Below, piece by piece: positions 11,434 to 14,461 of a stretch of DNA of 41,294 nucleotides. A program made the position numbers and the translations under genes. The stretch's first letter is position 1. Each line of letters opens with the position of its first letter. Below the pieces are notes generated by a model. The model was not told the DNA's origin. It did not search any database and saw only the letters and a list, made by a program, of their open reading frames with translations. The stretch comes from an uncultured Saprospiraceae bacterium (GTDB lineage Bacteria > Bacteroidota > Bacteroidia > Chitinophagales > Saprospiraceae). The stretch lies in the NCBI GenBank assembly GCA_937922815.1, contig CALAJP010000117.1:1-41294 (forward strand), given 5' to 3'.

Positions 11434-13314
11434 TCAATCAAATTTACACGGTAGTTTGACCTCCACTTGTGTTCCTACCCTGCCAACAATCTCCAAATCT
11501 TTTATATCAATTCTACAATCAATAGAGAAAGTTCGGCTTAATAATTCTAATCTTTTTTCAGTAATTGAAGTTCCCAATGAACGATGTTTATGATGACGAC
11601 CTTCTTCTATATAAGCTTTTTGTGTAGCATTTATCCCCGGTCCATTGTCCGTAATCGTACATAAAATAACAGAAGCAGAGAGTTCCGAAAAGTGGATTCT
11701 AATTTTACCATCAGATTCTAATTGCTTAACCCCATGCTCTAAAGCATTTTCAATATAGGGCTGTAAAATCATACTAGGAACCTTAATCATATCGGGTTCT
11801 ATATCATCATTAAGTGTTATTTCATACTCAAATTTGTTTTCAAATCTCAATGCTTTATTCAATTCTAAATAGCCATGTAAAAAAGATAATTCTTTATCCA
11901 AAGGAATAAAGTCCTTATCGGAATACTCCAAACTCTGTCTAATCATGGTAGCAAATTTAGACATATGAGTAGCAGCTTCTCTATTTTTTCCTTTTAAAAT
12001 AAATAGCTGAATCGCATTTAAAGTATTGTATATGAAATGAGGGTTCATTTGAGACCGCAAAGCCTTTAACTGCAATTTATTCGCCTCCAGCTTCATAATT
12101 TCTAGCTGTTTCTGCCTATTTTCAGCTTCATACCTTTCTCTTTGTTCATTTTCATGAACCATCTTCAACCTACGCTGATACTGTTCAAATGCTTCGGTAT
12201 ATAATTTAAGGTAAACGTAAGCTTGCTGATAATTCCCTACCGAATTATAGTATTCAGCCATATCTTTGGTCAACAAAGAGCGTAGTCGAAACTCTCCCTC
12301 CCTTGTGGCTACTTGTATTGCTTTGGTTAGATGTTTTAATGCCAACTCTGCCTTGCCCTGAGCCAAATACAACTCTCCTATCCATCTTTCCAACATCAAA
12401 TATTGATCTATCGAAATTAAAATAGCATCGCTTGACGAATATATTTTTTCGGCTTGTTGATAAAAATTCTCTGCCTGCTCATATTCTTTCGACTTAAAAG
12501 CCAGTTGTCCAAGGTTAGCAAATGAACTCGCATAGGGAACAATATCTCTATACTTTTCATCCATTTGAATAACTTTCTCTAAATATATTTTTGCTTCTGT
12601 CTCCTTTCCTAAATTGATATAAGTATTACCAACCTTGAAATAAACCCACGCTTTTCTAAATTGAAAACTCATTCTATCTGCCAAATCGAGTGCATTCAAA
12701 TACGAAGAAAGTGCGTCATCAGTAGAAGCAATAGATTCGTAAACCGTTCCCAAACCGACTTCAATTTGAAATTGTAAAAATTGGATCTCTATGGTACGTT
12801 CAATGATAGTTGAAAGTTCTTTGGATGCTTTTAGGTAAAAAAGAATCGCGCTTTGAGAATCTTTCACGAGTGTTTTCCAAAGTGCTTTTCTAACATAGAG
12901 TTTAGCATTCAGAAAGGAATCGCTCAGCCCCGAGACAATATTTTCTGCTAAAAATAAGGTTTGTTCGGCTACCGTAATCTTTTTACGATTCAATAAACAA
13001 GCAGACCTATCTAATAAAATATGCCCTAAAAATAAACATGGCTCCTGCTGACTATAAATCTGAAACAAGGTTTCGAATGAAATATCCGCCTTTTCAAACT
13101 GAGAGTCCATATTAAGAATAACAGCTTTCCGATATTGACAACGGTGAAAAATCTCGGCATCGACATCAATATCAATCATAGATTCTATCTCCTCAACATA
13201 TCTATAAGCAATTTCTGGTTTTCGGAACAAATTCAAATCAATGAGCATATCTAATGTTCTCACTTTATCTTCTTTTGTTTCGCTTACTTCTAGCTGTTGT
13301 AATAATTGACGCAT
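11434..13314 (-). CDS. Cytosolic TPR-repeat histidine kinase (LytS/PF06580 type)
   Basis: 626 residues from the ATG at 13314; a TTG three codons upstream (13323) is a weaker alternative. Residues about 1-380 are helical TPR-like repeats (e.g. AWVYFKVGNTYINLGKETEAKIYLEKVI, ASSFANLGQLAFKSKEYEQAENFYQQA). A coiled coil follows (ENEQRERYEAENRQKQLEIMKLEANK), then the kinase: H-box LRSQMNPHFIYNTLNAIQL, N-box PSMILQPYIENALEHGV, G-box ITDNGPGI and GTSITEKRLELL. No signal peptide or membrane helix is visible, whereas many Bacteroidota relatives carry both; the sensor is thus probably cytosolic. Its partner is most likely the LytTR regulator at 13703-14461, with a small peptide gene between them. Confidence 0.93.
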   Translation of the reverse strand: MRQLLQQLEVSETKEDKVRTLDMLIDLNLFRKPEIAYRYVEEIESMIDIDVDAEIFHRCQYRKAVILNMDSQFEKADISFETLFQIYSQQEPCLFLGHILLDRSACLLNRKKITVAEQTLFLAENIVSGLSDSFLNAKLYVRKALWKTLVKDSQSAILFYLKASKELSTIIERTIEIQFLQFQIEVGLGTVYESIASTDDALSSYLNALDLADRMSFQFRKAWVYFKVGNTYINLGKETEAKIYLEKVIQMDEKYRDIVPYASSFANLGQLAFKSKEYEQAENFYQQAEKIYSSSDAILISIDQYLMLERWIGELYLAQGKAELALKHLTKAIQVATREGEFRLRSLLTKDMAEYYNSVGNYQQAYVYLKLYTEAFEQYQRRLKMVHENEQRERYEAENRQKQLEIMKLEANKLQLKALRSQMNPHFIYNTLNAIQLFILKGKNREAATHMSKFATMIRQSLEYSDKDFIPLDKELSFLHGYLELNKALRFENKFEYEITLNDDIEPDMIKVPSMILQPYIENALEHGVKQLESDGKIRIHFSELSASVILCTITDNGPGINATQKAYIEEGRHHKHRSLGTSITEKRLELLSRTFSIDCRIDIKDLEIVGRVGTQVEVKLPCKFD

Positions 13315-13319
13315 GTTTT

Positions 13320-13338
13320 TCAATATTTATAATATTGA
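13320..13338. promoter_or_regulatory. Perfect palindrome just upstream of the kinase start
   Basis: TCAATATTTATAATATTGA: 8-bp arms around TAT, ending 6 bases before the kinase ATG at 13314. As DNA it could be an operator; as RNA a weak hairpin over the ribosome-loading region. It is AT-only apart from the ends, so chance is possible. Confidence 0.35.
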
Positions 13339-13406: not shown

Positions 13407-13442
13407 AAAAAAACGGGTCATAAACTAAAAGTTTATGACCCG
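13407..13442 (-). terminator. Intrinsic terminator of the small peptide gene
   Basis: A perfect 13-bp stem (AGTTTATGACCCG / CGGGTCATAAACT, loop of 3) followed on the minus strand by seven T. It separates the peptide gene from the kinase gene. A second perfect 7-bp hairpin (GAATCAT / ATGATTC, 13450-13470) lies between the stop codon and this terminator. Confidence 0.9.
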
Positions 13443-13473: not shown

Positions 13474-13629
13474 TTATTGTGGCATGTTTCCACTGAATCC
13501 ACCAATAAGGTTGCTAGAGGAGTTCCCTTTGTTCCCTCCTACAGCGTTCTTTTTTTGTTCGTCATTTAATAACTCAAATTCTTTTCTGAGTTCTTCCAAT
13601 GACTTAACACTGTTGTTATTTCCTTCCAT
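13474..13629 (-). CDS. 51-residue double-glycine-leader peptide, candidate secreted signal
   Basis: I do not recognise it as a named family. Read from the sequence, the product is 51 residues: a charged helical N-terminal part (SLEELRKEFELLNDEQKKN) ending AVGG at residues 29-32, then a 19-residue Gly/Asn/Ser-rich tail, NKGNSSSNLIGGFSGNMPQ, with no cysteine. Leu at -12, Gln at -8 and Ala at -4 relative to GG approximate the LSxxELxxIxGG leader pattern cut by C39 peptidase transporters. It has its own TATATTTG -7 box 18 bases upstream and its own strong terminator, so it makes a short (~235 nt) transcript. It lies 73 bases downstream of the LytTR regulator and 160 upstream of the TPR kinase. 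No C39 exporter is in the window. Alternatives: a bacteriocin-like peptide, or a small cytosolic protein. Confidence 0.72.
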   Translation of the reverse strand: MEGNNNSVKSLEELRKEFELLNDEQKKNAVGGNKGNSSSNLIGGFSGNMPQ

Positions 13630-13647: not shown

Positions 13648-13655
13648 CAAATATA
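13648..13655 (-). promoter_or_regulatory. -7 box (TATATTTG) of the small peptide gene
   Basis: Exact TAnnTTTG match 18 bases before the ATG at 13629, giving a leader of roughly 10 nt. The -33 position (TTTTAC on the minus strand) is not a good TTG match, which is compatible with a promoter needing an activator. Confidence 0.55.
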
Positions 13656-13702: not shown

Positions 13703-14461
13703 TTAATACCGTCCCTGTAAGTTTTCTAACCGTTCCAAAAACCCAGCTATCCGTCTCCTTGCTACTTCTAGCTTTGAACCATCTACCATTATTATCTGTC
13801 TTTCATTACGATTAAACTTTTTAATGAAGTTCATATTAACGATATGGCTCTTATGAATACGGTAAAAATTAAAATTTGTTAACAAATCTTCATACACTTT
13901 TATTGTTTTGGATACCGTAATTTTAGAATCTTTGGTCGTAAAAATATGAGTATAATTGTCTTCCGCTTCCATTCTAATGATTTCACTCATCTCTAAAAAA
14001 TAAATTCCATCTAATGCACTAATCGTTATTTTTGAAAATGTATTAGGATTTTGGTAGTAACTTTTCAACATTTCTACCCGTTCGTTCATTTTTTGCGGTA
14101 TAGCAGGCACTCTTTTTACGGCATCAATAATTGCTTGTGGATCAATGGGTTTTAACACATAACCGATAGCAGAATAATCAAATGCCTTGACTGCATACTC
14201 TTCATAAGCGGTTACAAATATTATATTAAAAGCTATATCTTCTAGTTGATCTAAAGTCGAAAAAATAGCCCCGTCTAATAAATTGATGTCCAAAAAGGCT
14301 ATATCTATAGGAGAATGAGGCTTATCGAAAAAAGCAGAAGCTTCAACATTAGACTTAAATACTCCAACAACCTCTAAGTCGGGGATAAAATTTTCAACTA
14401 TCGACCCTAATAGTTTTTGGCTATTTATTTCGTCTTCTATTATAATTGCTTTTCTACTCAT
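13703..14461 (-). CDS. LytTR-family response regulator
   Basis: 252 residues. Receiver domain at about 1-120: acidic pair IIIEDE, phospho-acceptor Asp in DIAFLDINLLDG, the Thr in IFVTAYEEYAVKAF, and the Lys in GYVLKPIDP. LytTR DNA-binding domain at about 145-245: ISALDGIYFLEMSEIIRMEAEDNYTHIF, FYRIHKSHIVNM.FIKKF, and VARRRIAGFLERL. Such regulators pair with PF06580 kinases, here very likely the TPR kinase at 11434-13314. LytTR proteins commonly bind pairs of short repeats, so the peptide-gene promoter 40-60 bases downstream is an obvious candidate target. Its start codon overlaps (ATGA) the stop of a 27-codon upstream ORF. Confidence 0.95.
   Translation of the reverse strand: MSRKAIIIEDEINSQKLLGSIVENFIPDLEVVGVFKSNVEASAFFDKPHSPIDIAFLDINLLDGAIFSTLDQLEDIAFNIIFVTAYEEYAVKAFDYSAIGYVLKPIDPQAIIDAVKRVPAIPQKMNERVEMLKSYYQNPNTFSKITISALDGIYFLEMSEIIRMEAEDNYTHIFTTKDSKITVSKTIKVYEDLLTNFNFYRIHKSHIVNMNFIKKFNRNERQIIMVDGSKLEVARRRIAGFLERLENLQGRY

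Follow-up and report, generated by a model that had tools for sequence, protein, structure and literature searches.

A conserved double-glycine peptide gene between a LytTR regulator and a TPR histidine kinase in Saprospiraceae: a candidate peptide-signalling module

The window (the whole 41,294-nucleotide stretch analyzed here) carries on its minus strand a gene for a double-glycine precursor peptide of 51 residues (13474–13629, stop codon included), translated as MEGNNNSVKSLEELRKEFELLNDEQKKNAVGG / NKGNSSSNLIGGFSGNMPQ. Residues 1–32 form the leader (13534–13629, minus strand), which ends in AVGG, and residues 33–51 form the tail (13477–13533, minus strand), which ends in MPQ and is the presumed exported peptide. 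A −7 promoter box of the form TAnnTTTG, here TATATTTG, is located at 13648–13655 on the same strand and begins 26 nt before the peptide ATG, and an intrinsic-terminator-like hairpin with 13 pairs, a loop of 3 and a T-run lies 3′ of the gene at 13414–13442 (minus strand; one found against 0.2 in shuffled sequences, with fold z-scores of −5.7 for a longer and −6.6 for a shorter stretch). The neighbors, also on the minus strand, are a receiver–LytTR response regulator of 252 residues (13703–14461; PF04397, E 1.3e-19; PF00072, 1e-11) and a TPR/PF06580 histidine kinase with a HATPase_c domain (11434–13323; PF06580, 2.5e-22; TPR_12, 8.2e-18), comprising 629 residues when read from TTG and having an alternative ATG start at 13314. 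The first-pass annotation of this DNA had described a 51-codon gene with its own −7 box and 13-bp terminator, lying between a LytTR regulator and a PF06580 kinase on one strand, and the ORF, box, hairpin, Pfam assignments and coordinates all agree with that description. The source assembly (3.88 Mb, 308 contigs, 96.6% complete) contains four LytTR genes and, by direct search, a single copy of the peptide.

With the window peptide as query, no NCBIfam model matched at E ≤ 10, Pfam returned one match only, to an unrelated model and under its cut-off, and viral contigs gave no match. A first contig scan of genomes with the same query was likewise empty, because the window copy is divergent; the first search of 60 relatives gave weak matches, seven of which are whole small ORFs with the same layout and 29–40% identity to the window copy. 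A profile built from these seven and the window peptide matched 175 of 298 same-family genomes at E ≤ 1, chance matches included, and a second one, drawn from 57 non-redundant members, hit 138 of the 298 at E ≤ 0.01 (126 at E ≤ 1e-5), the 138 including some matches without the family tail (G150) and three weak ones (G149, G212 and G223) counted from score alone. In its own genome, the window peptide is found by the family profile at E 1.3e-10. The carrier family is apparently Saprospiraceae, since the carriers named over 30 loci include Phaeodactylibacter xiamenensis KD52, Flavilitoribacter nigricans DSM 23189 and Lewinella cohaerens DSM 23179 along with MAGs, most of which bear the label Saprospiraceae.

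The peptides were read in 97 loci, several of them fetched twice, giving 76 distinct sequences out of a larger set that has many more matches, mostly weaker; the counts that follow depend on two alignments (A1 and A2) made from search matches. The family layout consists of the leader, a GG present in every one of the 57 aligned members, and a basic tail with the typical end (C/L)GGI.PQ. Among the 76 distinct peptides, the tail after the GG has 16–25 residues and a net charge of +1 to +6, ends in PQ in 70 and contains one Cys in 56; the window tail has none. The tail is thus strongly conserved, contrary to the variable tail first expected, and a 7-residue product released at a second GG (residues 43–44), also envisaged at the outset, was rejected since this GG belongs to the conserved tail motif, in which G44 and G47 are invariant in A1. 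Pooled pN/pS was 0.08 over 52 pairs picked at ≥85% amino-acid identity, a choice that lowers pN, and the copies of L024 and L035 show 13 differences, at synonymous sites only. One member with a start called too early (L034) was left out of the pN/pS, covariation, tail and gene-order counts and kept in those of the promoter box, upstream element, EM motifs and hairpin. Because relatives with the same GG and tail hold the same position in many genera, the peptide ORF goes beyond chance; judged from sequence comparison, it is a real gene, as initially observed, in a conserved family of double-glycine peptides that has no curated name and of which we found no description in the literature.

The limits of this family were drawn from leader models and from genomes elsewhere in the phylum. 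Scanned member by member, the leaders touched TIGR04149 in 22 of 57 cases and a bacteriocin signal model in 12 of 57, with weak E-values; against the curated TIGR04149 cut-off of 25 bits, the L028 peptide scores 19 bits and P0001 gives no match, and a TIGR04149 search of the window's genome found nothing above the cut-off. Among 395 genomes sampled from the phylum outside this family, 23 gave a match at E ≤ 0.05; a locus was obtained from 18 of them through their first matches (5 genomes and all second matches being unread), with a GG-leader ORF in 16, none having the tail-motif end, and no such ORF in 2. The best outside match (L119, E 9.9e-5) has NNSCGGPQ within a longer tail, which may be chance. 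GG-leader peptides are present in several Bacteroidota genomes outside the family, and an extension of the present family beyond Saprospiraceae was rejected as unsupported, no outside peptide read having the tail-motif end. As a separate observation, related GG leaders occur on different tails with EPPPFG or DPPPIG motifs at L189 (1725–2464, minus strand), L190 (82–246, minus strand) and L191 (2548–3147, plus strand), the peptides of L189 and L191 being in tandem and the set lying near an alanine-dehydrogenase-like gene. At L192 (3846–4031, plus strand) and L203 (3908–4093, minus strand), a peptide with a CGNIVPE/CGNIVPQ tail has no regulator or kinase nearby and adjoins a BrkB-like gene (Pfam being run on L192 only).

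Counted over one locus per distinct peptide (n = 76), the regulator lies upstream of the peptide in 65 of 75 readable loci and is not adjacent in 10, the kinase lies downstream in 64 of 74 and is not adjacent in 10, and the order regulator–peptide–kinase holds in 56 of the 73 loci readable on both sides, with neither neighbor in 3; homologues with a conserved GG beside the same regulator/kinase pair, for which the first-pass annotation had suggested a search, therefore do exist. Regulator orthologues (E ≤ 5e-57, a cut-off chosen after the distribution was seen) are found in 138 of the 298 genomes, together with the peptide in 131, the regulator being alone in 7 and the peptide match alone in 7, with descent ignored. 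When the seven regulator-only genomes were re-read, two proved to have a GG peptide under the cut-off (L239 and L241), two a tail without GG (L238 and L240), and three no peptide in the fetched stretch. The gene at L238 (2051–2215, plus strand) and L240 (2048–2215, plus strand) lies between regulator and kinase and keeps the tail KWNSRCGDLLPH with the double glycine absent. Nine peptide genomes were searched for an orthologue of the TPR-bearing kinase, and every one has a single copy (in G104 it is broken by a contig end); in eight of the nine, this copy is away from the peptide. Two control genomes without peptide and regulator gave kinase-domain matches only (TPR kinase in 0 of 2). One genome, G010 (87% complete), has kept both the regulator and the TPR-kinase orthologue, with no peptide in the stretch read and no C39. 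Most of these co-occurrence figures ignore descent and genome size. At L107 (3497–3664, minus strand), L111 (3487–3624, plus strand) and L113 (3341–3553, minus strand), family peptides have neither regulator nor kinase nearby, and the genomes of L107 and L111 carry a second copy adjoining the regulator (L200 and L201).

The non-coding surroundings of the gene are conserved as well. Of 66 loci, 28 have the box TAnnTTTG no more than 140 nt from the start, where shuffled sequences give 5.3. In the relatives, the regulator–peptide gap contains a promoter-like TTTTGTACTTTTA in 55–60 of 64 cases, counting those EM runs that recovered it, and a second motif further upstream, TATGTGTAAAAAAAAAATGT, in 42 of 64, both EM counts being made with no shuffle control. 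A strict pattern for the TATGTGTAAAAAAAAAATGT element matches 20 of 64 gaps, where shuffles give 1.1, and matches none of 66 regulator promoters and none of 56 peptide–kinase gaps. The element is absent from the window, whose genome has 7 element matches, each with 3 mismatches and none at the peptide gene. In three genomes (G001, G074 and G126), the sole exact genome-wide occurrence of TTATGnGTAATAAAAAWATGTR is at the peptide gene, the other matches having 3 mismatches and being about as many as in a reversed control; elsewhere, one of two tied best sites lies at the peptide gene (G020), a site at another place beats the one at the peptide gene (G205), the matches lie away from any known peptide gene (G000 and G094), or the genome has no match (G156). 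No clear LytTR direct repeat was recognized in the element, which we regard as a candidate site of the regulator, binding being presumed from its position. On the 3′ side of the peptide gene, 43 of 58 loci have a terminator-like hairpin with a T-run, where shuffling gives 8.4; the arm AAGGGCTACATT of this hairpin recurs across genera, the window included, with changes on both sides of pairs (L023, L025, L080, L083 and downstream regions shorter than 60 nt being left out of this comparison), and the conserved hairpin is possibly more than a terminator.

The kinase is predicted to be soluble and cytosolic. Among 77 complete kinase ORFs, mostly of about 640 residues and some from genomes fetched twice, 76 have no segment above a Kyte–Doolittle value of 1.6, and the lone exception (L150) has its membrane-type segment in an N-terminal extension that may reflect a wrong start. 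The AlphaFold2 model of the window kinase (mean pLDDT 87.8) consists of a confidently predicted TPR solenoid (about residues 1–361), a long helix and the kinase core. Fold matches of the solenoid include LGN (Z 27.7), NprR (26.0), Rap of Phi3T with peptide (24.9) and Rap bound to CSF (24.1), the NprR and Rap matches covering about residues 55–386. The modelled sensor thus has the look of a peptide-binding solenoid in the cytosol; such TPR folds are widespread, however, and similarity of fold does not reveal a ligand. All 50 kinases compared have the phosphorylation-site histidine, and the aspartate that we take to be the receiver phosphorylation position is conserved in at least 95% of 50 regulators.

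C39 exporter-peptidase domains, present in 180 of the 298 same-family genomes, were detected in 135 of the 138 peptide genomes versus 45 of the 160 others, with descent ignored. Within genera that are mixed for the peptide, C39 was present in 33 of 34 genomes with the peptide versus 11 of 21 without (permutation p 0.005) and, after four labels had been corrected by hand, in 28 of 28 versus 7 of 14 (p 0.001), a test that controls by genus only, on genera listed by hand and with several incomplete genomes among the negatives. The window's genome encodes two C39 proteins, one of which combines C39, ABC_membrane and ABC_tran domains, so that the C39 peptidase sought from the start is at hand. The C39 genes are not adjacent to the peptide. 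The idea that the upstream element is also present at C39 loci was rejected, since 20 fetched stretches contain no strong copy (weak scores occur at L174, L175, L182 and L184), and a rough regular-expression search for GG peptides adjoining C39 genes led nowhere. As expected of a C39/PCAT substrate, the leader ends in GG (L238 and L240 excepted) and C39 occurs in the same genome; the genomes of L238 and L240 also contain C39. Altogether, these sequence data give good support to a conserved module of Saprospiraceae in which the peptide and the two-component pair go together with an exporter.

Signalling by ribosomal peptides is well known in Firmicutes. In the Com and Blp systems of streptococci, a GG-leader peptide, a C39 exporter, a polytopic membrane histidine kinase and a LytTR regulator work with direct-repeat regulator sites before the peptide operon. 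The analogy drawn in the first-pass annotation holds for the GG leader, the LytTR regulator, the C39 exporter in the genome and the peptide gene adjoining regulator and kinase, and fails at the receptor, as the Saprospiraceae kinase is predicted to be soluble with TPR repeats in place of a membrane receptor; furthermore, the exporter lies outside the locus, the tail is conserved across genera and the host belongs to Bacteroidota. The cytosolic TPR solenoid encoded beside a small peptide gene recalls instead the RRNPP family (Rap, Rgg, NprR, PlcR and PrgX), and its fold is near those of NprR and Rap, yet the generic TPR protein LGN scores as high. Unlike RRNPP receptors, however, the sensor is a histidine kinase (His_kinase and HATPase_c) acting through a LytTR regulator, with no DNA-binding or phosphatase effector, and unlike RRNPP propeptides, the Saprospiraceae peptide has a GG leader. 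Neither a membrane kinase like that of Com/Blp nor an RRNPP effector domain was found on testing; the module thus belongs to neither group, and a hybrid with a cytosolic TPR receptor should replace the streptococcal analogy.

The family peptides share with TIGR04149 peptides and bacteroidetocins the GG leader and the phylum, and differ from TIGR04149 peptides in that no member scored reaches the curated cut-off and in their fixed association with a regulator and a kinase; the YGNG box, the motif used for comparison with bacteroidetocins, is absent from all 76 distinct peptides. Bacteroidetocins are described as GG-leader peptides of Bacteroidota (PMC6671954), and a survey of RRNPP systems, as far as its available text goes, covers Firmicutes only (PMC10075063). 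GG proteins or PCAT exporters also serve communal behavior or differentiation outside Gram-positives, in the biofilm proteins of Synechococcus (PMC4997328) and HetC of Nostoc (PMC10986499), for which the available text mentions no TPR kinase/LytTR pair, and RiPP mining in Bacteroidales has, in the text available, one putative cluster with a kinase and a regulator (PMC10352776). Our literature search, which left most subscription journals and preprints outside, found no peptide/two-component circuit of this kind in Bacteroidota, in line with the earlier statement that none was known; such absence is no proof.

Our reading, which we place just on the probable side, is that a C39-exported peptide, the LytTR regulator and the soluble TPR kinase work together as one module in a closed autoregulatory loop, with the peptide as the likeliest input. 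From the GG and the association with C39, it is presumed that an ABC exporter with a C39 peptidase, whose gene lies elsewhere in the genome, would cut the precursor after the GG and that the cleaved 19-residue peptide would be exported; the kinase would pass phosphate to the LytTR regulator, which would act on the peptide promoter to close the loop. Since the kinase is soluble, kinase and peptide would have to meet inside the cell, where the TPR solenoid would most likely bind the peptide, either before export as the precursor or once it has been taken up again. Support comes from the selected, conserved peptide family with its invariant GG, from linkage and co-occurrence with regulator, kinase and C39, from the predicted solubility of the TPR kinase and, among the relatives, from a conserved promoter element that is the whole-genome best match in three genomes; cleavage and export, binding of the element by the regulator, binding of the peptide by the TPR domain and the sign and output of the loop are what we infer. 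Counting against it are the window lacking the element, the better site elsewhere in G205, C39 genes that are unlinked and without a strong element, the lack of tail–TPR covariation, the GG-less genomes, the unlinked loci, and a cytosolic receptor that requires precursor sensing or re-uptake.

More tentatively, the soluble TPR kinase may directly read its own GG peptide in the cytoplasm, recognizing either the conserved GGI.PQ end or the leader, and so constitute in Bacteroidota a dedicated two-component system that responds to a peptide. In mirror-tree comparisons that allow for the other domains, leader and TPR domain covary (partial r 0.21, 6 of 500 permutations), tail and TPR domain do not (partial r 0.04, 183 of 500), and tail and receiver give 0.18 (20 of 500); none of the eight tests is strong, and the hints are weak and divided. 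The read-through model made for L059 gives pLDDT values of at least 50 at the end of the tail (43–50) and in parts of the leader, versus 26–28 in the linker, a difference that conservation alone could explain. If a cytosolic TPR kinase does read its own peptide, the exporter half of Com/Blp would be joined to the receptor half of RRNPP, and the system would respond to peptide that has come back into the cell or to an exporter that has stalled.

The same data could be accounted for by a secreted effector, a C39-exported bacteriocin-like or surface-active peptide whose transcription the two-component system controls on another cytosolic cue. This alternative, which we consider rather unlikely, agrees with the bacteriocin-type models touched by the leader, the basic tail, the regulator element located chiefly at the peptide gene and the lack of clear tail–TPR covariation, whereas no immunity-like or modifying gene stood out as recurring beside the peptide in 31 loci and the window, and the conservation of the tail would be unusual for an antimicrobial; the kinase is retained even where it is unlinked, which fits control alone equally well. 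Still less probable is an intracellular partner or export-state sensor, in which the unexported precursor would bind the TPR kinase and report C39 exporter function, the exported tail having no signalling role of its own. Although the cytosolic kinase, the leader–TPR covariation (one of the eight tests) and the two genomes with a tail and no GG speak for it, the GG is otherwise invariant and C39 tracks the peptide, so that export matters in most lineages, and both GG-less genomes have C39 too. A chance ORF or unrelated small gene, to which the 51-residue length, the lack of a database family and the divergence of the window copy might point, is practically negligible in view of the homologues in 138 genomes, the low pN/pS and the promoter and hairpin conserved around the gene.

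Peptide signalling stays our best reading, unproven as it is, and in Bacteroidota this peptide may serve as the signal of a new peptide-signalling circuit; of the circuit first proposed, the conserved module has stood up to the sequence-based refuting conditions set in the first-pass annotation, and the role of the peptide as signal is what we infer. The module occurs in 138 of 298 sampled family genomes and comprises a single kinase, a single regulator, in most cases a single peptide, and a likely exporter; its presence in named strains makes exported-peptide signalling in Bacteroidota directly testable. The peptides of L238 and L240, which keep the tail and lack the GG, suggest that the tail can matter without this export route. 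Finally, genus g101 has two genomes in which the peptide gene is followed by a TonB-dependent-receptor-like gene (OMP_b-brl_3), at L206 (1042–3471, minus strand), where the kinase follows the receptor gene, and at L207 (4466–6970, plus strand), which gives a lead, and only a lead, for re-uptake of the peptide.
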